From Stutzerimonas nosocomialis (GTDB taxonomy: Bacteria; Pseudomonadota; Gammaproteobacteria; Pseudomonadales; Pseudomonadaceae): 64,000 bases of DNA. Location: positions 1-64,000 of the forward strand of contig NZ_QLAE01000010.1 of NCBI RefSeq assembly GCF_005876855.1, written 5' to 3'. The translations under genes were made by a program, and so were the position numbers. Under the pieces are notes generated by a model. It saw nothing but the letters and a program-made list of their open reading frames with translations. It was not told the DNA's origin and did not search any database. Shown piece by piece: positions 2,614 to 10,212 of the stretch; position 1 is the stretch's first letter; every line of letters starts with the position of its first letter.

Positions 2614-3663
2614 TCAGCTGGCCAGGGCGGCGGTGGCCGGTTCCGGTGTTTCCACCGCGTAACCGCGCGGGTTGCGGCTCTGCCAGCGCCAGGCGTCGGC
2701 GAGCATGGTGGTGAGGTCTTTCTCGGCGCGCCAGCCCAGTTCCTCCCAGGCCTTGGTCGGGTCCGACCAGCACTGGGCGATGTCGCCGGCGCGGCGGGGC
2801 TGGAAGCTGTGGGGCAGCGGCCGGTCGATCACCTGCTCGAAGGCGGTGATCATCTCGCGCACCGAATGGCCCTTGCCCGTTCCCAGGTTCCACACCGAGA
2901 CGCCCTTGACGCTTTCCAGGCGGTCGAGCGCCTTGAGGTGGCCTTTGACCAGGTCGACCACGTGGATGTAGTCGCGGATGCCGGTGCCGTCGGGCGTGGG
3001 GTAGTCGGCGCCGAAGACGTTCAGTTGCTTTCGCCTGCCGACCGCCACCTGCAGCATGTAGGGCAGCAGGTTGTTGGGAATGCCGTTGGGGTCCTCGCCG
3101 ATCAGGCCCGACTCATGGGCGCCGATCGGGTTGAAGTAGCGCAGCAGGCCGATCGACCAGCGCGGGTCGGAGTCAGCCAGGCCGCGCAGCACGTTCTCGG
3201 CCATCAGCTTGGACTGGCCGTACGGGTTGGTCGGAATCCCGGTCGGGCAGCTTTCGGTGATCGGCATCACCGGCGACTCGCCGTAGACGGTGGCCGAGGA
3301 GCTGAACACCAGCTTGAAGATCTCCGCTTCGGCCATCGCCTGGCACAGCGCGATGCTGCCGCTGACGTTGGTCTCGTAGTAGCGCAGGGGTTCGCGCACG
3401 CTTTCGCCCACGGCCTTGAGACCGGCGAAGTGCATCACCGCGGTGACCGGGTAGGCGGCAAACAGGGCGTTGAGCAGGGGACGGTTGCGCACGTCTCCCT
3501 TGACGAAATGCAGCGGCCGGCCCGCCAGCTTCTCTACCCGCTCGAGCGCCGTACGCGAGCTGTTGCAGAGGTTGTCGAGCACCAGCACATCGTGGCCTGC
3601 CAGAAGCAGTTCCAGGACCGCATGGGAACCTATGTATCCCGCACCCCCTGTCACCAGAATCAT
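2614..3663 (-). CDS. galE: UDP-glucose 4-epimerase
   Basis: Interconverts UDP-glucose and UDP-galactose in the cytosol using bound NAD. The 349-residue protein has the Rossmann GGAGYIGS at residues 6-13, the SSSATVYGES strand with the catalytic Ser, and Y148-x3-K152 in NPYGQSKL. A longer frame reaches 3708, but GGAGG 7 bases upstream fixes the start at MILVTGG. Divergent from the glycosyltransferase-glf cluster, it would supply UDP-galactopyranose, the substrate of the mutase encoded downstream on the other strand. The family call is secure; the functional link to the cluster is inferred. Confidence 0.93.
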   Translation of the reverse strand: MILVTGGAGYIGSHAVLELLLAGHDVLVLDNLCNSSRTALERVEKLAGRPLHFVKGDVRNRPLLNALFAAYPVTAVMHFAGLKAVGESVREPLRYYETNVSGSIALCQAMAEAEIFKLVFSSSATVYGESPVMPITESCPTGIPTNPYGQSKLMAENVLRGLADSDPRWSIGLLRYFNPIGAHESGLIGEDPNGIPNNLLPYMLQVAVGRRKQLNVFGADYPTPDGTGIRDYIHVVDLVKGHLKALDRLESVKGVSVWNLGTGKGHSVREMITAFEQVIDRPLPHSFQPRRAGDIAQCWSDPTKAWEELGWRAEKDLTTMLADAWRWQSRNPRGYAVETPEPATAALAS

Positions 3664-4095
3664 GTTTCTACCTCCGGATATGCACTTTTCGAACACGGTC
3701 GAAGACACAGCAGCTCGCCTTGACGGGCAGCGGGCGAGTCAGTCTCCAGAAATGGGATCGGCGGGCCGGGGCAGGCACGTCAGCCGCATCGAAGTGCGCT
3801 GGGCTGCTGCCGGCTAAGTCAGACGTCCTGTGAATAGTGACGGGGAGGTGGCTGGCAAGTTCCGGATCGGTGTCAGCCAGCCGACAGCGGGTAGTGCGAA
3901 GCGGTCGCACACCGCCGATTTGGAACCCTCGGCGTTTGGCATCGTCCATAGCCGGCGGGGTCGCTCTCGTTGAAGCAGCCGAGCGCTCCGACGATTCCCA
4001 CCGAATTGATGCTTTACGCAAGGAGGCGTTGGCTTCGAGCGCGATGCGCGGAGAAGGACGGACTGCGCGCCGCCAACCGTGAACAGAGGTGCACA
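3664..4095. other. 432-base divergent control region between galE and the saccharide cluster
   Basis: I see no convincing coding sequence here; the short frames crossing it lack ribosome sites and have no recognisable product. It must hold promoters for both galE and the glycosyltransferase gene. The only promoter-like pattern I could pick out is the ECF-type candidate listed separately. The galE end carries its ribosome site. Confidence 0.6.
3922..3946 (+). promoter_or_regulatory. Candidate ECF-sigma promoter for the saccharide cluster
   Basis: GGAAC (3922-3926), 16 bases, then CGTC (3943-3946) resembles the -35/-10 pair recognised by several ECF sigma factors. It lies about 150 bases upstream of the glycosyltransferase ATG on the correct strand. 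Such short motifs are common in GC-rich DNA, so this is weak. Confidence 0.25.
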
Positions 4096-5283
4096 ATGAG
4101 TTGGGCCGGTCCCTACCAGTACGACATCGGCAAGTCGCGCAGCCCGGATCAGCCACCGGTCGAAGTGGTGTTCGACGAGCAGATTCCGACGCTGTTGTGT
4201 CTTTCCCACCTGCGCTGGAGCTTCGTCTACCAGCGTCCTCAGCACCTGATGTCGCGGTTCGCCCGTGACTACAACGTGCTGTTCTTCGAGGAGCCGATCA
4301 GTACCGAGGACGACCAGCCCTGGCTCGAGGTGCGCCCCGATGCCAGCGGCGTGCAGGTGCTGGTGCCGCGGTTGCCCGAAGGTTGCCAGGGGGAAGACGC
4401 GCTGCGCGTCCAGCGCCAGTTGCTGGACGGCTACCTGGAAAAGCTCGGCGTGGGCGACGACCTGATGCTCTGGTACTACACGCCCATGGCGCTCGGCTAT
4501 GCCGGCCACCTCAAGCCCAGACTCACGGTCTACGACTGCATGGATGAGCTCTCGGCCTTCCGCGGCGCCCCGCCGGCGCTGGTGGAGAACGAGCGCACCC
4601 TGCTCGAGCGCGCCGACGTGGTCTTCACCGGCGGCTACAGCATCTGGGAAGCCAAGCGCGAGCTGCACGACAACGCCCATGCGTTCCCCAGCAGCGTGGA
4701 CGTCGAGCACTTCGCCGCGGCCCGCAGGCCCCAGGCCGATCCCGAAGACCAGGCCATGATCGGCCGGCCGCGCCTGGGCTTCTACGGTGTGATCGACGAG
4801 CGCTTCGACATCCAGCTGGTCGCCGAAGCCGCCGAGCAGCGGCCGGACTGGCAGTTCGTGCTGGTCGGGCCGGTGGTCAAGATCGACCCGGCCGAGCTGC
4901 CACGGCGCGACAACATCCATTACCTGGGCGGCAAGACCTACGACGAGCTGCCCCGTTACCTGGCGGGCTGGGACGTGGCCATCATGCCCTTCGCGATGAA
5001 CGAGTCGACGCGCTTCATCAGCCCCACCAAGACCCCCGAATACCTGGCCGGCGGCTGTCCGGTGGTGTCCACGCCGATCAAGGACGTGGTGCGCACCTAC
5101 GGCGATACCGACATCGTCTACATCGCCGCGACCACCGACGAGTTCGTCGCCGCGGTCGAGGACGCCCTGGCCGACGCCGCCGACCGCGACCGCCTGCTGG
5201 CCACCGCCGACGAGATCTTGGGCGACATGTCCTGGGATTACACCTGGAGCCTGATGAAGGAGAAGATGCAATGCGCCCTGTAA
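4096..5283 (+). CDS. GT4-like glycosyltransferase
   Basis: A 395-residue soluble protein with GT-B features. An N-terminal acceptor domain (LCLSHLRWSFVYQRPQHL, about residues 33-50) is followed by a donor domain with FISPTKTPEYLAGGCPVVSTP near residues 308-328. That stretch matches the conserved SP.K..EYLA.G.PVV nucleotide-sugar motif of GT4-type retaining enzymes. It likely transfers a sugar from a nucleotide donor to an unknown acceptor. AGAGGT precedes the ATG at 4096; the in-frame ATG at 3970 lacks such a site. It overlaps glf by 13 bases, implying coupled translation. I infer a galactosyl or galactofuranosyl transferase from context, but the sequence alone does not show the sugar. Confidence 0.8.
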   Translation: MSWAGPYQYDIGKSRSPDQPPVEVVFDEQIPTLLCLSHLRWSFVYQRPQHLMSRFARDYNVLFFEEPISTEDDQPWLEVRPDASGVQVLVPRLPEGCQGEDALRVQRQLLDGYLEKLGVGDDLMLWYYTPMALGYAGHLKPRLTVYDCMDELSAFRGAPPALVENERTLLERADVVFTGGYSIWEAKRELHDNAHAFPSSVDVEHFAAARRPQADPEDQAMIGRPRLGFYGVIDERFDIQLVAEAAEQRPDWQFVLVGPVVKIDPAELPRRDNIHYLGGKTYDELPRYLAGWDVAIMPFAMNESTRFISPTKTPEYLAGGCPVVSTPIKDVVRTYGDTDIVYIAATTDEFVAAVEDALADAADRDRLLATADEILGDMSWDYTWSLMKEKMQCAL

Positions 5284-6536
5284 GCGTCCAAGACAGCAAT
5301 CCCAACCAGGCCTCCGGTCGCAGCGACCACACCCGACCCGCAGGCGAGCCGCCGTCGCGCGCGACCCGCGAACGCGGTTTCGACTACCTCATCGTCGGCG
5401 CCGGTTTCGCCGGCAGCGTGCTGGCCGAGCGCCTCGCCGCCGGGCTGAACAAGCGCGTGCTGGTGGTCGACCGTCGCCCGCACATCGGCGGCAACGCCTA
5501 CGATCACCATGACGAGGCCGGGGTGCTGATCCACCGTTACGGTCCGCACATCTTCCACACCAACTCGCAGCGCATCGTCGACTACCTGTCGCGCTTCACC
5601 GAGTGGCGGCCCTACGAGCACCGCGTGCTCGGCCAGGTGGACGGCCAGCTGGTGCCGATCCCGATCAACATGACCACGCTCAACAAGCTCTACGGGCTGA
5701 ACATGACCACCGAGCAGGAGGCCGCCGACTACCTGGCCAGCCGCGCCGAGCCGGTGGACGACATCCAGACCAGCGAAGACGTGGTGATCAACGGCATCGG
5801 CCGCGAGCTCTACGAGAAGTTCTTCCGCGGCTACACCCGCAAGCAGTGGGGGCTGGACCCGTCGCAGCTGGACAAGTCGGTGACCTCGCGGGTGCCGACG
5901 CGCACCAACACCGACGACCGCTACTTCACCGACACCTTCCAGCAGATGCCCAGGCATGGCTACACGAAGATGTTCGAGAAGATGCTCGATCACCCCAACA
6001 TCAAGGTGATGATCAACACCGACTACCGCGAGATCCGCAACGAGGTCGAGTACGACCACCTGATCTACTGCGGCCCGATCGACGAGTATTTCGACTACCG
6101 CTTCGGCAAGCTGCCCTATCGCTCGCTCAGGTTCGAGCACAAGCAGCTCGACCAGGCCCGGTTCCAGCCGGTCGGCACGGTCAACTACCCGGCCGAGGAC
6201 GTGCCCTACACGCGCATCAGCGAGTACAAGCACCTCACCGGGCAGGAACACCCGAAAACCAGCATCACCTACGAGTACCCCTCGGCCGATGGCGACCCCT
6301 ACTACCCCATCCCGCGGCCGGAGAACGCCGAGCTGTACAAGCGCTACCAGAAGCTCGCCGACGAGACGCCGGGGGTGACCTTCATCGGCCGGCTGGGGAC
6401 CTACAAGTACTACAACATGGACCAGGTCGTCGGGCAGGCGCTGGCCGCCTACAAACGCATCGAGGAAGCCGAGCTGGGCCCCGAGGCCGGCGAGAGCGCG
6501 GAGCACGCCCGCAGCCTGGCCGAGCAGGCACCTTGA
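5271..6536 (+). CDS. glf: UDP-galactopyranose mutase
   Basis: FAD enzyme that converts UDP-galactopyranose to UDP-galactofuranose, the donor for Galf-containing glycans. The 421-residue protein has a dinucleotide fold at VGAGFAGSVLAE (about residues 42-53), the DRRPHIGGNAYDHHDEAG block, substrate-loop residues around VPIPINMTTLNKLYG, and the C-terminal FIGRLGTYKYYNMDQVVG signature of bacterial mutases. The first 35 or so residues are a low-complexity extension beyond the usual length; the real start could lie slightly inside, but the 13-base overlap with the upstream gene favours 5271. It is the diagnostic gene of this cluster. Confidence 0.93.
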   Translation: MRPVSVQDSNPNQASGRSDHTRPAGEPPSRATRERGFDYLIVGAGFAGSVLAERLAAGLNKRVLVVDRRPHIGGNAYDHHDEAGVLIHRYGPHIFHTNSQRIVDYLSRFTEWRPYEHRVLGQVDGQLVPIPINMTTLNKLYGLNMTTEQEAADYLASRAEPVDDIQTSEDVVINGIGRELYEKFFRGYTRKQWGLDPSQLDKSVTSRVPTRTNTDDRYFTDTFQQMPRHGYTKMFEKMLDHPNIKVMINTDYREIRNEVEYDHLIYCGPIDEYFDYRFGKLPYRSLRFEHKQLDQARFQPVGTVNYPAEDVPYTRISEYKHLTGQEHPKTSITYEYPSADGDPYYPIPRPENAELYKRYQKLADETPGVTFIGRLGTYKYYNMDQVVGQALAAYKRIEEAELGPEAGESAEHARSLAEQAP

Positions 6537-6622
6537 GTTGAGCGGCGCGTGACGCGCCTAACCGTAGCCCCCGGGTCGCCGACGCGCGACGCCCCGGGGC
6601 TGCGCTTGCGAGTGAAGAGACG

Positions 6623-7780
6623 ATGCACCGACCGACGATTTTCGACAGCTTCTTCATGGGCGGCTTCGAGTGTTCCAACCACCGCCGCGGCGACGGCCGC
6701 CGGCTGGACCTGCTCGATGCGACCGGACATGACCGGTTCGCCGCCCACGACTACGCCACGCTGCAGCGCTACGGGCTGCGCACCGTCCGGGACGGCGCGC
6801 GCTGGCACCTGATCGAGCGCGTGCCGGGCCAGTACGACTGGTCCAGCTTCCTGCCGATGCTGCGCGCCGCGCACCGCCAGGGCACCCAGGTGATCTGGGA
6901 CCTGTGCCACTACGGCTGGCCGGACGACATCGACATTTGGCGTCCGCAGTTCGTCCAGCGCTTCGCGCGCTATGCCGCCGCCCTGGCGCAGGTGGTCAAG
7001 GACGAAACCGGCGAGGTGCCGTTCTTCGCGCCGCTCAACGAAATCTCCTTCTGGGCGTGGGCCGGCGGCGACGTGGCCTACTTCAACCCGATGGCCCGGG
7101 GCCGTGGGCCGGAGCTCAAGCACCAGCTGGTGCGTGCGACCATCGCCGCGATCGAGGCGATCCGCGAGGTGGAACCGCGGGCGCGCTTCGTCCAGGTCGA
7201 CCCGGCCATCCATGTGGTGGCCCGCAACGACCGGCCGGGCCCGCAGCGCGAGGCGGAGAACTTCCGCCAGTCGCAGTTCGAGGCCTGGGACATGCTCTGC
7301 GGGCTGGCCTGGCCGGGCCTGGGCGGTGCGCCGGAGTACCTGGACATTCTCGGGGTCAACTATTACTCGGACAACCAGTGGTATCACGGCGACGGCCAGA
7401 CCATCGATCGCAGCAACCCCGATTACCGCCCGTTCAAGGGCATCCTGCAGGAGATCTGGCGGCGCTACGAGCGCCCGCTGGTGGTCGCCGAGACCGGTGC
7501 CGAAGGCGATGTGCGTGGCGAATGGCTGCGCTACGTGGCCGAGCAGGTCGGGCTGGCGATGCAGCGCGGCGTGCCGGTCGAGGGCATCTGCCTGTATCCG
7601 GTGGTGGACTACCCTGGCTGGACGGACGACAGGCACTGCCCGGTCGGGCTGCTCGGCTTCCCCGACGACAACGGCACGCGAAAGCCGCACGACGGCCTGG
7701 CCGATGAGCTGCGCCTGCAACAGGCCCGCTTCGCCCACGCCGAACACCCCGAGTCGAAGACGGTAGACATAACATCATGA
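6623..7780 (+). CDS. GH1-like (clan A) glycoside hydrolase, cytosolic
   Basis: A 385-residue protein without signal peptide. It resembles the beta-glucosidase clan: RTVRDGARWHLIE early in the barrel, FAPLNEI with likely acid/base E140, GVNYYSDNQW around residue 246, and VVAETGAEGD with likely nucleophile E290. Both carboxylates are present, so it is probably catalytic. A cytosolic hydrolase between glf and an ABC exporter suggests editing or transglycosylation of a cytoplasmic intermediate, but this is inference. The ATG has only a weak GAAGAG site, 86 bases after glf. The TGA overlaps the exporter ATG (ATGA). Databases may call it a family 1 glycosylhydrolase. Confidence 0.75.
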   Translation: MHRPTIFDSFFMGGFECSNHRRGDGRRLDLLDATGHDRFAAHDYATLQRYGLRTVRDGARWHLIERVPGQYDWSSFLPMLRAAHRQGTQVIWDLCHYGWPDDIDIWRPQFVQRFARYAAALAQVVKDETGEVPFFAPLNEISFWAWAGGDVAYFNPMARGRGPELKHQLVRATIAAIEAIREVEPRARFVQVDPAIHVVARNDRPGPQREAENFRQSQFEAWDMLCGLAWPGLGGAPEYLDILGVNYYSDNQWYHGDGQTIDRSNPDYRPFKGILQEIWRRYERPLVVAETGAEGDVRGEWLRYVAEQVGLAMQRGVPVEGICLYPVVDYPGWTDDRHCPVGLLGFPDDNGTRKPHDGLADELRLQQARFAHAEHPESKTVDITS

Positions 7781-9585
7781 GCGCCAAGGCCGCGTCGAAG
7801 GGTCAACCACTTCTTCCCGGCCAGCCGGTGGCCTTTCTCTGGCATTACATCCGCGTCAGACCCTGGCACTTCGGCGGGTTGCTGGCCCTGATCGTCGGCG
7901 CGGCTTCCTGCGCGGTGGCGGTGCAGTACGGGATGAAGCTGCTGGTCGATGCCATGGCCACCCGCGACCGCTCCGAGGCCAACGTCTGGTTCCCCCTCGG
8001 CCTGTTCATCAGCCTGATCGTCCTGGAAAACGTCTTCTGGCGCCTGGGCGGCTGGCTTGGCTGCCGCACCGTGGTGGCGAGCGTGGTGGACATCCGCGTC
8101 GACCTGTTCAAGCACCTGACCGGGCACCCGATGCGGTACTTCACCGAGCATTTCGCCGGCTCGCTGGGTAACCGCATCTCGGCCCTGGGGCAGGCCGCGG
8201 GCGCCATCTACGGTGGGTTGGCCTGGAAGATCGTGCCGCCGATCGTGGACTTCCTCGGCGCGGTGGTGGTGCTGATCACCGTCGACGGACGGATGGCGGT
8301 GGCGCTGATCGTCTTCGTGATGATCGTGGCCGCGCTGATCACCGGTTTCGGCATCCGTGGGCGCTCCAAGCACCAGCGCTTCGCCGCGCAGGCCGCGCGG
8401 GTCGGCGGCGAGCTGGTCGATGCGGTCTCCAACGTCTGGACCATCAAGGCCTTTTCCGCCCGCGACCGCGAGAGCGAGCGGCTCGCCCAGGAGATCGGCT
8501 ACGAGGCCCGCGCCCAGCGGCGCAGCTGGATGTACCTGGAGAAGGCCCGGGTGATGCACGACATCTGCCTGTCGCTGATGGCCGGCGGCATGCTGATCTG
8601 GGCGATCAGCCTGTGGGTCGGCGGCTCGGTGACCTCCGGCGACGTGGTGCTGGTCAGCGCGCTGACGTTCCGCATCCTGCACGGCTCGCGCGACCTGGCC
8701 CTGGCGCTGGTGGACACCACCCAGCAGATCGGCGCGATCGACGACACCCTGCGCATCATCGTCCAGCCCCATGGCCTGCAGGATGCCGAGACCCAGCTCA
8801 AGCTCGCCGAAGGCGACATCACCTTCGAGGCGATCAGCTTCGCCTACCCCGACCGTGGCCCGGTGTTCGAGAAGTTCGACCTGCACATCCCGGCCGGGCA
8901 GAAGGTGGGCATCGTCGGCTCCTCGGGGGCGGGCAAGTCCACCCTCATCAACCTGATCCAGCGGCTGGACGACGTCCAGGACGGGCGCATCCTGATCGAC
9001 GGCCAGGACGTGCGCAGCGTCAGCCAGGACAGCCTGCGCGAGAAGATCGCGGTGGTGCCGCAGGAAACCGCGCTGTTCAACCGCACCATCCGCGAGAACA
9101 TCCGCTACGGCCGGCCCGGCGCCAGCGACGAGGACGTGATCGAGGCGGCGCGCAACGCCTTCTGCGATGCCTTCATCCGCGAGCTGCCCGAGGGCTACGA
9201 CACCATGGTGGGCGAGCGCGGCGTGATGCTGTCCGGTGGTCAGCGCCAGCGCCTTGGCATCGCCCGTGCGTTCCTAAAGGACGCGCCGATCCTGATCCTG
9301 GACGAGGCCACCTCGGCGCTCGATACCCAGTCGGAAGCGGAAATCCAGGCGGCGCTGAGCAAGCTGGTGCAGGACCGCACGGTGGTGGCCGTGGCCCATC
9401 GCCTGTCGACGCTCGCCTCCTTCGATCGCATCGTCGTGCTCAAGCACGGCAAGCTGATCGAGGACGGCACGCCGCAGGAGCTGCGCAGCCGCGGCGGCGA
9501 GTTCGAGTCGCTCTGGCGCATGCAGTCCGAGGGGTTCACCGCCGCCGCAGCACCGGCCGCCCCCGCGTCGGCACCCGCCGAGTGA
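7777..9585 (+). CDS. ABC exporter half-transporter (MsbA type)
   Basis: A 602-residue fusion of a six-helix membrane domain (about residues 25-330) and a nucleotide-binding domain. Visible motifs are Walker A GSSGAGKST near residue 381, Q-loop VVPQETALF, signature LSGGQRQRLG near 485, Walker [13 protein letters not shown] near 505, and the H-loop AVAHRLS near 541. It should homodimerise in the inner membrane and move an amphipathic or glycolipid substrate outward. Coupling by ATGA to the hydrolase and its place at the end of a Galf cluster suggest the cargo is a lipid-linked saccharide. The C terminus is an Ala/Pro-rich tail. Confidence 0.88.
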   Translation: MSAKAASKGQPLLPGQPVAFLWHYIRVRPWHFGGLLALIVGAASCAVAVQYGMKLLVDAMATRDRSEANVWFPLGLFISLIVLENVFWRLGGWLGCRTVVASVVDIRVDLFKHLTGHPMRYFTEHFAGSLGNRISALGQAAGAIYGGLAWKIVPPIVDFLGAVVVLITVDGRMAVALIVFVMIVAALITGFGIRGRSKHQRFAAQAARVGGELVDAVSNVWTIKAFSARDRESERLAQEIGYEARAQRRSWMYLEKARVMHDICLSLMAGGMLIWAISLWVGGSVTSGDVVLVSALTFRILHGSRDLALALVDTTQQIGAIDDTLRIIVQPHGLQDAETQLKLAEGDITFEAISFAYPDRGPVFEKFDLHIPAGQKVGIVGSSGAGKSTLINLIQRLDDVQDGRILIDGQDVRSVSQDSLREKIAVVPQETALFNRTIRENIRYGRPGASDEDVIEAARNAFCDAFIRELPEGYDTMVGERGVMLSGGQRQRLGIARAFLKDAPILILDEATSALDTQSEAEIQAALSKLVQDRTVVAVAHRLSTLASFDRIVVLKHGKLIEDGTPQELRSRGGEFESLWRMQSEGFTAAAAPAAPASAPAE

Positions 9586-9586
9586 C

Positions 9587-9874
9587 ATGAGCGCGCGCAA
9601 GCCCCGCGACGGCGGTCTCGACCGCAAAGGGCGTGCGAAGCGCCCCGAGCCGGCGGCCCTCGCGCGGGTCCGGGTCGAGTCCGAGAGCCTGCGCAGCGTG
9701 GGCTACGACCCGGACAGCCGCATTCTGGAGGTGGAGTTCCAGGGCGACGGGCTCTACCGCTACGAGGACGTGCCGCCCGAGGTGGTGCTCGAGCTGCTGG
9801 AGGCCGAGTCGATGGGCACCTATTTCAACCAGGTGTTCAAGGCCCGGGGCCATCGCTACCGGCGCCTGGATTGA
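9587..9874 (+). CDS. KTSC-domain small protein
   Basis: A 95-residue protein with a basic N-terminal 30 residues followed by a KTSC domain: VESESLRSVGYDPDSRILEV, then LYRYEDVPPEVVLELLEAESMGTYFN. The family is widespread, sometimes fused to synthetases or nucleases, and has no firm biochemical role. It begins one base after the exporter stop codon and so is probably in the same transcript. Whether it takes part in saccharide export or is a passenger cannot be told from sequence. Confidence 0.85.
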   Translation: MSARKPRDGGLDRKGRAKRPEPAALARVRVESESLRSVGYDPDSRILEVEFQGDGLYRYEDVPPEVVLELLEAESMGTYFNQVFKARGHRYRRLD

Positions 9875-9996: not shown

Positions 9997-10212
9997 ATGA
10001 CAGATCACCACACGTACAAGAAAGTCGAAATCGTCGGTTCTTCGCGCAACAGCGTCGACGAGGCGATCCAGAACGCGATCAGCGAGGCCAGCAGCAGCCT
10101 GCAGAACGTCGAATGGTTCGAGGTGGGCGAGATTCGCGGCCACGTCGAGAACGGCAAGGTCGGCCACTTCCAGGTCACCCTGAAAGTCGGCTTCCGCCTG
10201 ATCAACAGCTGA
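9997..10212 (+). CDS. Dodecin (flavin-binding)
   Basis: A 71-residue dodecin: YKKVEIVGSSRNSVDEAIQNAI, then VEWFEVGEIRGHVENGKVGHFQVTLKVGFRL. The Trp of VEWFEV and the Gln of HFQVTLKVGF correspond to residues that stack and hold the flavin pair in characterised dodecins. The family forms hollow dodecamers that buffer flavins or CoA and limit photo-oxidative damage. GGGAGAGGCC precedes the ATG. It appears monocistronic, with a hairpin just after the stop. Confidence 0.93.
   Translation: MTDHHTYKKVEIVGSSRNSVDEAIQNAISEASSSLQNVEWFEVGEIRGHVENGKVGHFQVTLKVGFRLINS

Follow-up and report, generated by a model that had tools for sequence, protein, structure and literature searches.

To our knowledge, the glf genes described so far, which encode UDP-galactopyranose mutase (UGM), belong to loci for O-antigen, capsule or arabinogalactan, and glf is usually taken as a sign of O-antigen, capsule or galactan. 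We analyzed a 64,000-nucleotide stretch of Stutzerimonas nosocomialis DNA (contig NZ_QLAE01000010.1, positions 1 to 64,000), called the window here, which contains galE and, divergent from it, a cassette of a glycosyltransferase (GT) gene, glf, a gene for a protein resembling glycoside hydrolase family 1 (GH1; the protein is called GH below) and a gene for an ATP-binding cassette (ABC) exporter. In contrast to the known loci, the window Glf goes with a single GT subfamily and with a GH1-like protein. This cassette is probably a biosynthesis-and-export set for a product bearing galactofuranose (Galf), and we rate it as a variant of Galf glycoconjugate biosynthesis with an unusual triad at its core. 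UGM, GT and GH make up the core, to which some lineages add galE and the exporter. The GT stays with UDP-Galf synthesis even where the mutase gene is replaced.

The initial annotation, made from the sequence alone, listed these five genes as a candidate undescribed system. All five are present as open reading frames (ORFs). No description of the cluster was found in open-licence PMC full text; subscription papers and preprints lay outside that search, and the word "undescribed" is provisional. The features are as follows:

2614-3663, minus strand: galE, UDP-glucose 4-epimerase (ATG at 3663, 349 residues, TIGR01179)
3822-3863, no strand: putative shared promoter or operator block between galE and the GT gene (alignment of Stutzerimonas relatives)
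4096-5283, plus strand: GT-B glycosyltransferase, GT4-like, proposed galactofuranosyltransferase (395 residues, Pfam Glyco_trans_1_4)
5271-6536, plus strand: glf, UGM (TIGR00031; PDB relative 3hdq)
6623-7780, plus strand: GH1-like protein, cytosolic (GH1 fold by predicted structure; catalytic Glu140 and Glu290)
7777-9585, plus strand: ABCB-type half exporter, not MsbA (ABC_membrane and ABC_tran)
9587-9874, plus strand: KTSC-domain gene, a neighbour only (PF13619)

One glycosyltransferase and three kinds of mutase

Relatives of the locus were collected through GH, and the best 80 of 312 loci were fetched and counted; gene calls in the relatives rest on tblastn matches, Pfam or record annotation. 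The order GT-glf-GH-ABC was kept on one strand at 65 of these 80 loci. A further 10 have GT-glf-GH without the ABC gene in the stretch fetched, and the other five are rearranged, cut by the end of a contig or, as at locus L065, show GH alone. The hosts include Gamma-, Alpha- and Betaproteobacteria, among them Stutzerimonas, Pseudomonas, Xanthomonas, Azospirillum, Skermanella, Vreelandella, Methylobacillus and Methylophilus, and others such as one Kuenenia-labelled bin. GH was present in 52 of 97 genomes, its own included. The nearest named GH relative, at 96% protein identity, is that of S. azotifigens 115A1; the genome that carries the window is 4.76 Mb in size.

Co-occurrence was also counted in a phylum sample of 398 genomes, with thresholds of at least 250 bits for GH, at least 300 bits for GT and E ≤1e-20 for glf; the bit thresholds were put at gaps once the match lists were known. 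GH was found in 13 genomes, GT in 16 and glf in 46. All 16 GT genomes carry glf, compared with 30 of the 382 others (Fisher, 7e-17, with the kinds of Glf pooled, as in the next test), and when a single genome of the window's genus is kept, the figure is 14 of 14 (Fisher, 5e-15). Together with the order kept at 65 loci, this bears out the co-occurrence check that the initial annotation had proposed. Weaker matches were excluded before the counts, namely GT matches of 74-133 bits in 40 genomes and best GH matches of 28-73 bits in six. The distant GTs provide a contrast, since only one of their 40 genomes (G303) has glf, as counted by eye. One of the dropped GH matches, at 48 bits in genome G419, is the gene that adjoins GT and glf at locus L130. 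GT was present in 12 of the 13 GH genomes. At the level of single copies, the phylum sample has 17 strong GTs, and 15 of them share a stretch with some mutase (exceptions L138 and L139); so do the GTs in 11 of 12 plasmid regions, chosen and opened by hand, where the mutase is either separate or fused (exception L169).

The swapping of one mutase kind for another is a better argument than the Fisher values for the tie between GT and UGM. The first kind, at least 61% identical to the window Glf, is found in most of the GT loci examined. The window Glf itself scores 417 bits against TIGR00031 (curated cut-off 303.75) and belongs to that family; its best solved relative is 3hdq (E 5e-178), presumably the Deinococcus radiodurans enzyme. 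The second kind (L135, L136, L137 and L170) is 39-42% identical to the window Glf and forms a separate branch. Against TIGR00031, three of the four gave 303, 305 and 326 bits; the score just under the cut-off came from a fragment. The third kind is a eukaryote-type flavin adenine dinucleotide (FAD) domain that ends the GH-GT-UGM proteins of L140, L165 and L166. Pfam labels this domain amine oxidase in L140 and L165, and in BLASTP a triple-fusion FAD domain matched the window Glf at no better than E 0.016. At E ≤0.001, the L165 domain matches 14 PDB sequences (E 5e-48 to 1e-44), every one of which bears the name UDP-galactopyranose mutase. The same holds for all 14 PDB matches of the L140 domain, such as 4dsg and 3ute, which we take to be eukaryotic enzymes. 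Identity to the L165 domain is 80% for L166 and 79% for L140, and a search of 170 loci found the domain at no other. Since three kinds of UGM serve one GT, there is strong support for UDP-Galf as its likely donor.

GT and mutase are also joined physically. They form a single frame at nine of the 80 loci and at L129, L131 and L134, and GT-Glf fusions occur on plasmids of Sinorhizobium, Rhizobium and Gloeothece (L159, L161 and L167; the Pfam scan covered L159 and L167). D. radiodurans has a GT-glf pair with an 8-base overlap (NZ_OV024759.1, L160), in which GT is 55% and Glf 67% identical to the window proteins; this differs from the window in that the GH family and the ABC gene were not found in the stretch opened. 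A D. radiodurans gene, dr_A0367, is listed as a UDP-galactopyranose mutase in PMC7022480.

The GT passes the Pfam Glyco_trans_1_4 cut-off of 27 and is predicted to adopt a GT-B fold with a mean predicted local distance difference test (pLDDT) score of 87.8, so its description as a GT4-like transferase stands. Its ORF as listed starts at a TTG at 3970. Because the first 42 residues of that version have pLDDT <50 in the model, and because most of the aligned full-length homologues start at MSWAG or close to it, we placed the probable start at the ATG at 4096. The top NCBIfam match is TuaH (NF047676), a teichuronic acid glycosyltransferase, at 77 bits; the cut-off is 550, so the window GT is not a member. 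Assignment of the acceptor from the structure was tried and dropped, since the 50 structural matches listed include sucrose-phosphate synthase, MshA, HepE, BshA, PimA, GumK and WaaG, all within a few Z units, and many GT4-like enzymes score nearly alike; we therefore do not name an acceptor. GT-B folds resemble each other. No match among those 50 bears a galactofuranosyltransferase label, which excludes nothing. From its genetic association with UGM, we propose that the GT is a dedicated galactofuranosyltransferase that would use UDP-Galf as its donor.

The GH1-like protein as a probable pathway partner

GH1 beta-glucosidases such as 8znw and 1np2 are the described enzymes to which the window GH can be compared; it is about 20% identical to them and, at 385 residues, shorter. 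Pfam gave no match for it at E 0.001. Its PF00232 score of 15.1 bits lies below the gathering cut-off of 22.6, so it is outside that family by profile; 26 of 44 members of the GH family match PF00232 at E ≤1, the best at 1.2e-8, and no protein in the genome matches it at E 0.001. The predicted structure is a (beta/alpha)8 barrel of the GH1 fold and, with the GT-B model of the GT, answers the structure-prediction check that had been suggested. Asn139, the following Glu140 (Glu codon at 7040) and Glu290 (codon at 7490) are invariant in 44 homologues and align with the acid/base and nucleophile motifs of the GH1 structure 6z1h. This upholds the earlier call of a GH1-like hydrolase with both catalytic Glu residues. 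The glycone pocket differs. In GH1 enzymes it is marked by the Glu of NFEW and the Trp of xWS, and the GH1 beta-glucosidases carry both. The window GH has Gly332 and Tyr325 in their place, each invariant in the 44. From sequence and model, it is a putative remote GH1 enzyme with the catalytic Glu pair kept and the sugar pocket altered. One alignment comprised the window and 43 of the 80 loci; a second comprised 39 sequences, after L028 and L036 had been omitted for stops and, to be cautious, L035 and L136 as well.

A biosynthetic role for such a protein has a parallel. Plant SFR2, a chloroplast membrane protein, is a GH1-family galactolipid transferase; it is a GH1 enzyme that builds glycolipids. 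GH also takes part in fusions. GH and GT share a single frame at L135, L136, L139 and L140, and GH, GT and UGM form single proteins of about 1,240 residues at L140 (8337-12053), L165 (7992-11720, on an Acinetobacter venetianus plasmid) and L166 (7992-11747, on a Pantoea piersonii plasmid). GH1-RmlD proteins, whose second domain is of the sugar-nucleotide reductase type, adjoin GT and Glf at L062, L167 and L168, apparently another biosynthetic use of the GH1 domain. At L159, in Sinorhizobium, one gene starts with a GT4 domain that takes up half of it, and the GH match fills the other half; the adjoining gene encodes 1,079 residues and combines GT4, GFO/IDH/MocA and zinc-ADH domains. At L162, in Deinococcus sp. 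AJ005, a fusion joins GH to an acyl-CoA dehydrogenase domain; nearby lie a GT-glf pair and genes for PIG-L, a methyltransferase and a GT. The orientation varies as well: GH-ABC is divergent from GT-glf at L128, and GH is convergent with glf-GT at L132 and L164. Because the orientation varies, the association appears to have been rebuilt more than once. This repeated re-association, through fusions and orientations, is our strongest argument for counting GH as part of the pathway.

The surroundings of two loci were also noted. The GH-GT fusion at L139 lies on a contig of 25% G+C in a 1.1-Mb genome, next to what by eye are phytoene desaturase-like and plasmid replication-like genes; this contig may be the plasmid of a reduced symbiont that retained the fusion. 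At L130 (8745-13839), the gene after GT-glf is GH1-like but longer (25% identical), and the one after that has a weak match to GH43, a family that includes furanosidases.

Several observations weigh against a fixed set of genes with a shared function. The Fisher values overstate independence, since linked genes are inherited together. At L138, L139 and L169, tblastn with the window Glf and a eukaryote-type UGM found no UGM near GT; the search at L169 reached 9 kb on each side of GH, and the translated stretch there has one in-frame stop. The L139 genome does have glf, on a separate contig. At L065, GH stands alone within 8 kb on each side, and a contig sharing the name of that bin has the full set (L082). 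Genome G268 has GH without a GT or glf match, and one of two GH copies in genome G464 stands alone. As for the exporter, ABC was not seen at 10 of the 80 loci where GT-glf-GH was present (three of these 10 end <2 kb from GH), and no such ABC adjoins GH or GT in the 12 plasmid regions opened. In genome G442, a 64% identical ABC adjoins aminotransferase and nitroreductase genes, and that genome has no listed GT, glf or GH match. These ABC and GH genes apart from the pair would fit a chance grouping of a drug-type ABC and an unrelated glycosidase beside glf-GT, which we regard as very improbable given the order kept at most of the loci, the GH-GT fusions and the presence of GT in nearly every GH genome.

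Lineage additions and the proposed exported product

galE is a lineage companion and not a constant member of the cassette, because its strand varies and it was not found beside many of the loci: it lies on the opposite strand at 43 of the 80, on the same strand at eight and was not found at 29, in counts for which some stretches stop at a contig edge. In the window, GT, glf, GH and ABC run together on the plus strand, with a 13-base GT/glf overlap, 86 bases between glf and GH and an ATGA overlap of GH and ABC. The tight coupling and both overlaps are thus as first annotated; galE, whose orientation was not stated there, is divergent and outside the operon. In an alignment of 16 intergenic regions from Stutzerimonas relatives, a block at 3822-3863 is conserved (GCGTCCTG..GATA..GGACGG..AGTTCC). 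GGAACTT reads on the galE strand, and CGTCC..GGACG forms an imperfect dyad; the block is a possible shared promoter or operator. An AlgU-like promoter pattern upstream of galE and GT was tried and rejected, as none of 35 intergenic regions matched it.

The KTSC gene was likewise rejected as a member, since a homologue is present at 31 of the 80 loci, all labelled Stutzerimonas or Pseudomonas. The extent first given, 2614 to 9874, contains the five genes and at its end takes in this non-member. A dodecin gene at 9997-10212 is an ordinary downstream neighbour.

The ABC protein has Walker A, LSGGQ and DEA motifs and five transmembrane (TM)-like segments by simple hydropathy. MsbA, the lipid A flippase (TIGR02203), is the closest described comparison. 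The cassette ABC is an ABCB-type half transporter like MsbA, but its 378 bits stay far below the cut-off (602), which a second protein, encoded on a different contig of the genome, passes with 806 bits. The label "MsbA-type" therefore holds for the superfamily and not for the MsbA family. Placement in an NCBIfam family was attempted and gave none above cut-off among the 25 of 188 matches listed. Outside the cassette, 23 relatives of this ABC were found and 13 were opened; at seven of the 13, a gene of one GT4 homology group lies within a few kb (the group was typed by Pfam in one of the seven, where the L147 member is a GT4-type transferase). A GT20 gene and a debranching-type gene lie near the ABC at L147 and L151. 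The exporter is an optional lineage addition. At L053, in Xanthomonas arboricola, the ABC match after GH covers just 57 residues, which suggests that the exporter was lost.

We propose the following pathway for the cassette as a biosynthesis-and-export set. By their family membership, GalE would convert UDP-Glc to UDP-galactopyranose (UDP-Galp) and Glf would convert UDP-Galp to UDP-Galf. GalE scores 444 bits against TIGR01179 (curated cut-off 262.3) and is a member of that family. The galE at 2614-3663 encodes the only protein in the genome above that cut-off, and the cassette Glf is the only PF03275 match, which supports the route from UDP-Glc to UDP-Galf proposed in the initial annotation. 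The GT-B transferase would then, in all likelihood, move Galf from UDP-Galf onto an acceptor in the cytosol. The GH1-like protein may be a biosynthetic partner rather than a scavenging hydrolase; with its altered sugar pocket, it would work in the cytosol, where it might trim or transglycosylate either the acceptor or the galactofuranoside. In the Stutzerimonas form, the ABCB-type exporter would carry the product over the inner membrane, as its translational coupling suggests.

What that product is can be approached from the gene content. In the first reading of the locus, a small membrane lipid receives a single Galf and is then flipped by the ABC protein, without forming a polymer; this is a tentative possibility. 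The remaining ORFs of at least 100 residues in 2614-9874 all overlap cassette genes in other frames, so there is no space there for wzx, wzy, a ligase or a second GT. A scan of the five genes and the KTSC gene for a Wzx/Wzy locus found no flippase or polymerase genes. A block with one GT and neither polymerase nor ligase suits a small lipid, as do the ATGA overlap of GH and ABC and the fact that ABCB exporters include lipid flippases (MsbA and ABCB4 appear among the PDB matches of the ABC). However, the ABC falls below the MsbA cut-off and is optional, and the GT has no TM-like segment by simple hydropathy, although a peripheral lipid GT would still be compatible. The absence of a second transferase also holds for this lineage only, as rhizobial loci add two GT4-domain proteins. 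Across the rhizobial and deinococcal versions, the added genes are for GT, oxidoreductase, deacetylase and methyltransferase functions, which fits a larger or modified glycoside.

A free, soluble Galf metabolite, such as a protective oligosaccharide or glycoside that the ABC protein exports and that is tied to stress survival, is a rather doubtful alternative. Among the matches listed, the structures nearest to the GT model are sucrose-phosphate synthase and MshA, with BshA close after, and these enzymes glycosylate soluble acceptors; the pointer is a weak one, since GT-B folds are alike. One deinococcal cluster contains PIG-L deacetylase and methyltransferase genes. Catalase, Dps, manganese catalase, CsbD or ferritin-like genes occur in five of the 12 plasmid regions (L159, L161, L162, L164 and L169), but these regions were hand-picked and the figure comes without a background rate, and stress genes were not seen among the window neighbours scanned.

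It is unlikely that the GT decorates the lipopolysaccharide (LPS) core or O-antigen with Galf while other loci of the genome supply the remaining chain. O-antigens are known to contain Galf, and msbA and a Wzy_C-type ligase/polymerase gene, the sole Wzy_C match of the genome, lie near each other on contig C13. The cassette, however, is on a different contig and has its own exporter, and the related sets in Deinococcus, on a cyanobacterial plasmid and as a fused plasmid gene are unlike an O-antigen locus.

Beyond a biosynthesis-and-export set, a bolder reading can be put forward as a speculation with less than even prospects. UGM, GT and the GH1-like protein might be an undescribed, self-contained galactofuranosylation machine, reassembled repeatedly with three mutase kinds and once as a 1,242-residue protein. 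Its hosts would be Proteobacteria, Deinococcota and a planctomycete bin, and a cyanobacterium would carry a GH1-RmlD variant of it. The GH1 protein would be a furanoside transglycosidase and the product a new class of Galf glycoconjugate for stress survival.

Significance for Galf biology

Mammals are not known to contain galactofuranose. In the present loci, glf is the mark of another, widespread pathway, in which a GT that looks dedicated to UDP-Galf is joined by a GH1-like protein with an altered pocket inside the cell. Annotators could now name genes that are recorded as "glycosyltransferase family 1 protein" and "beta-glucosidase". The fused GH-GT-UGM protein provides an experimental handle, as one polypeptide may carry UDP-Galp to a Galf product in the tube.

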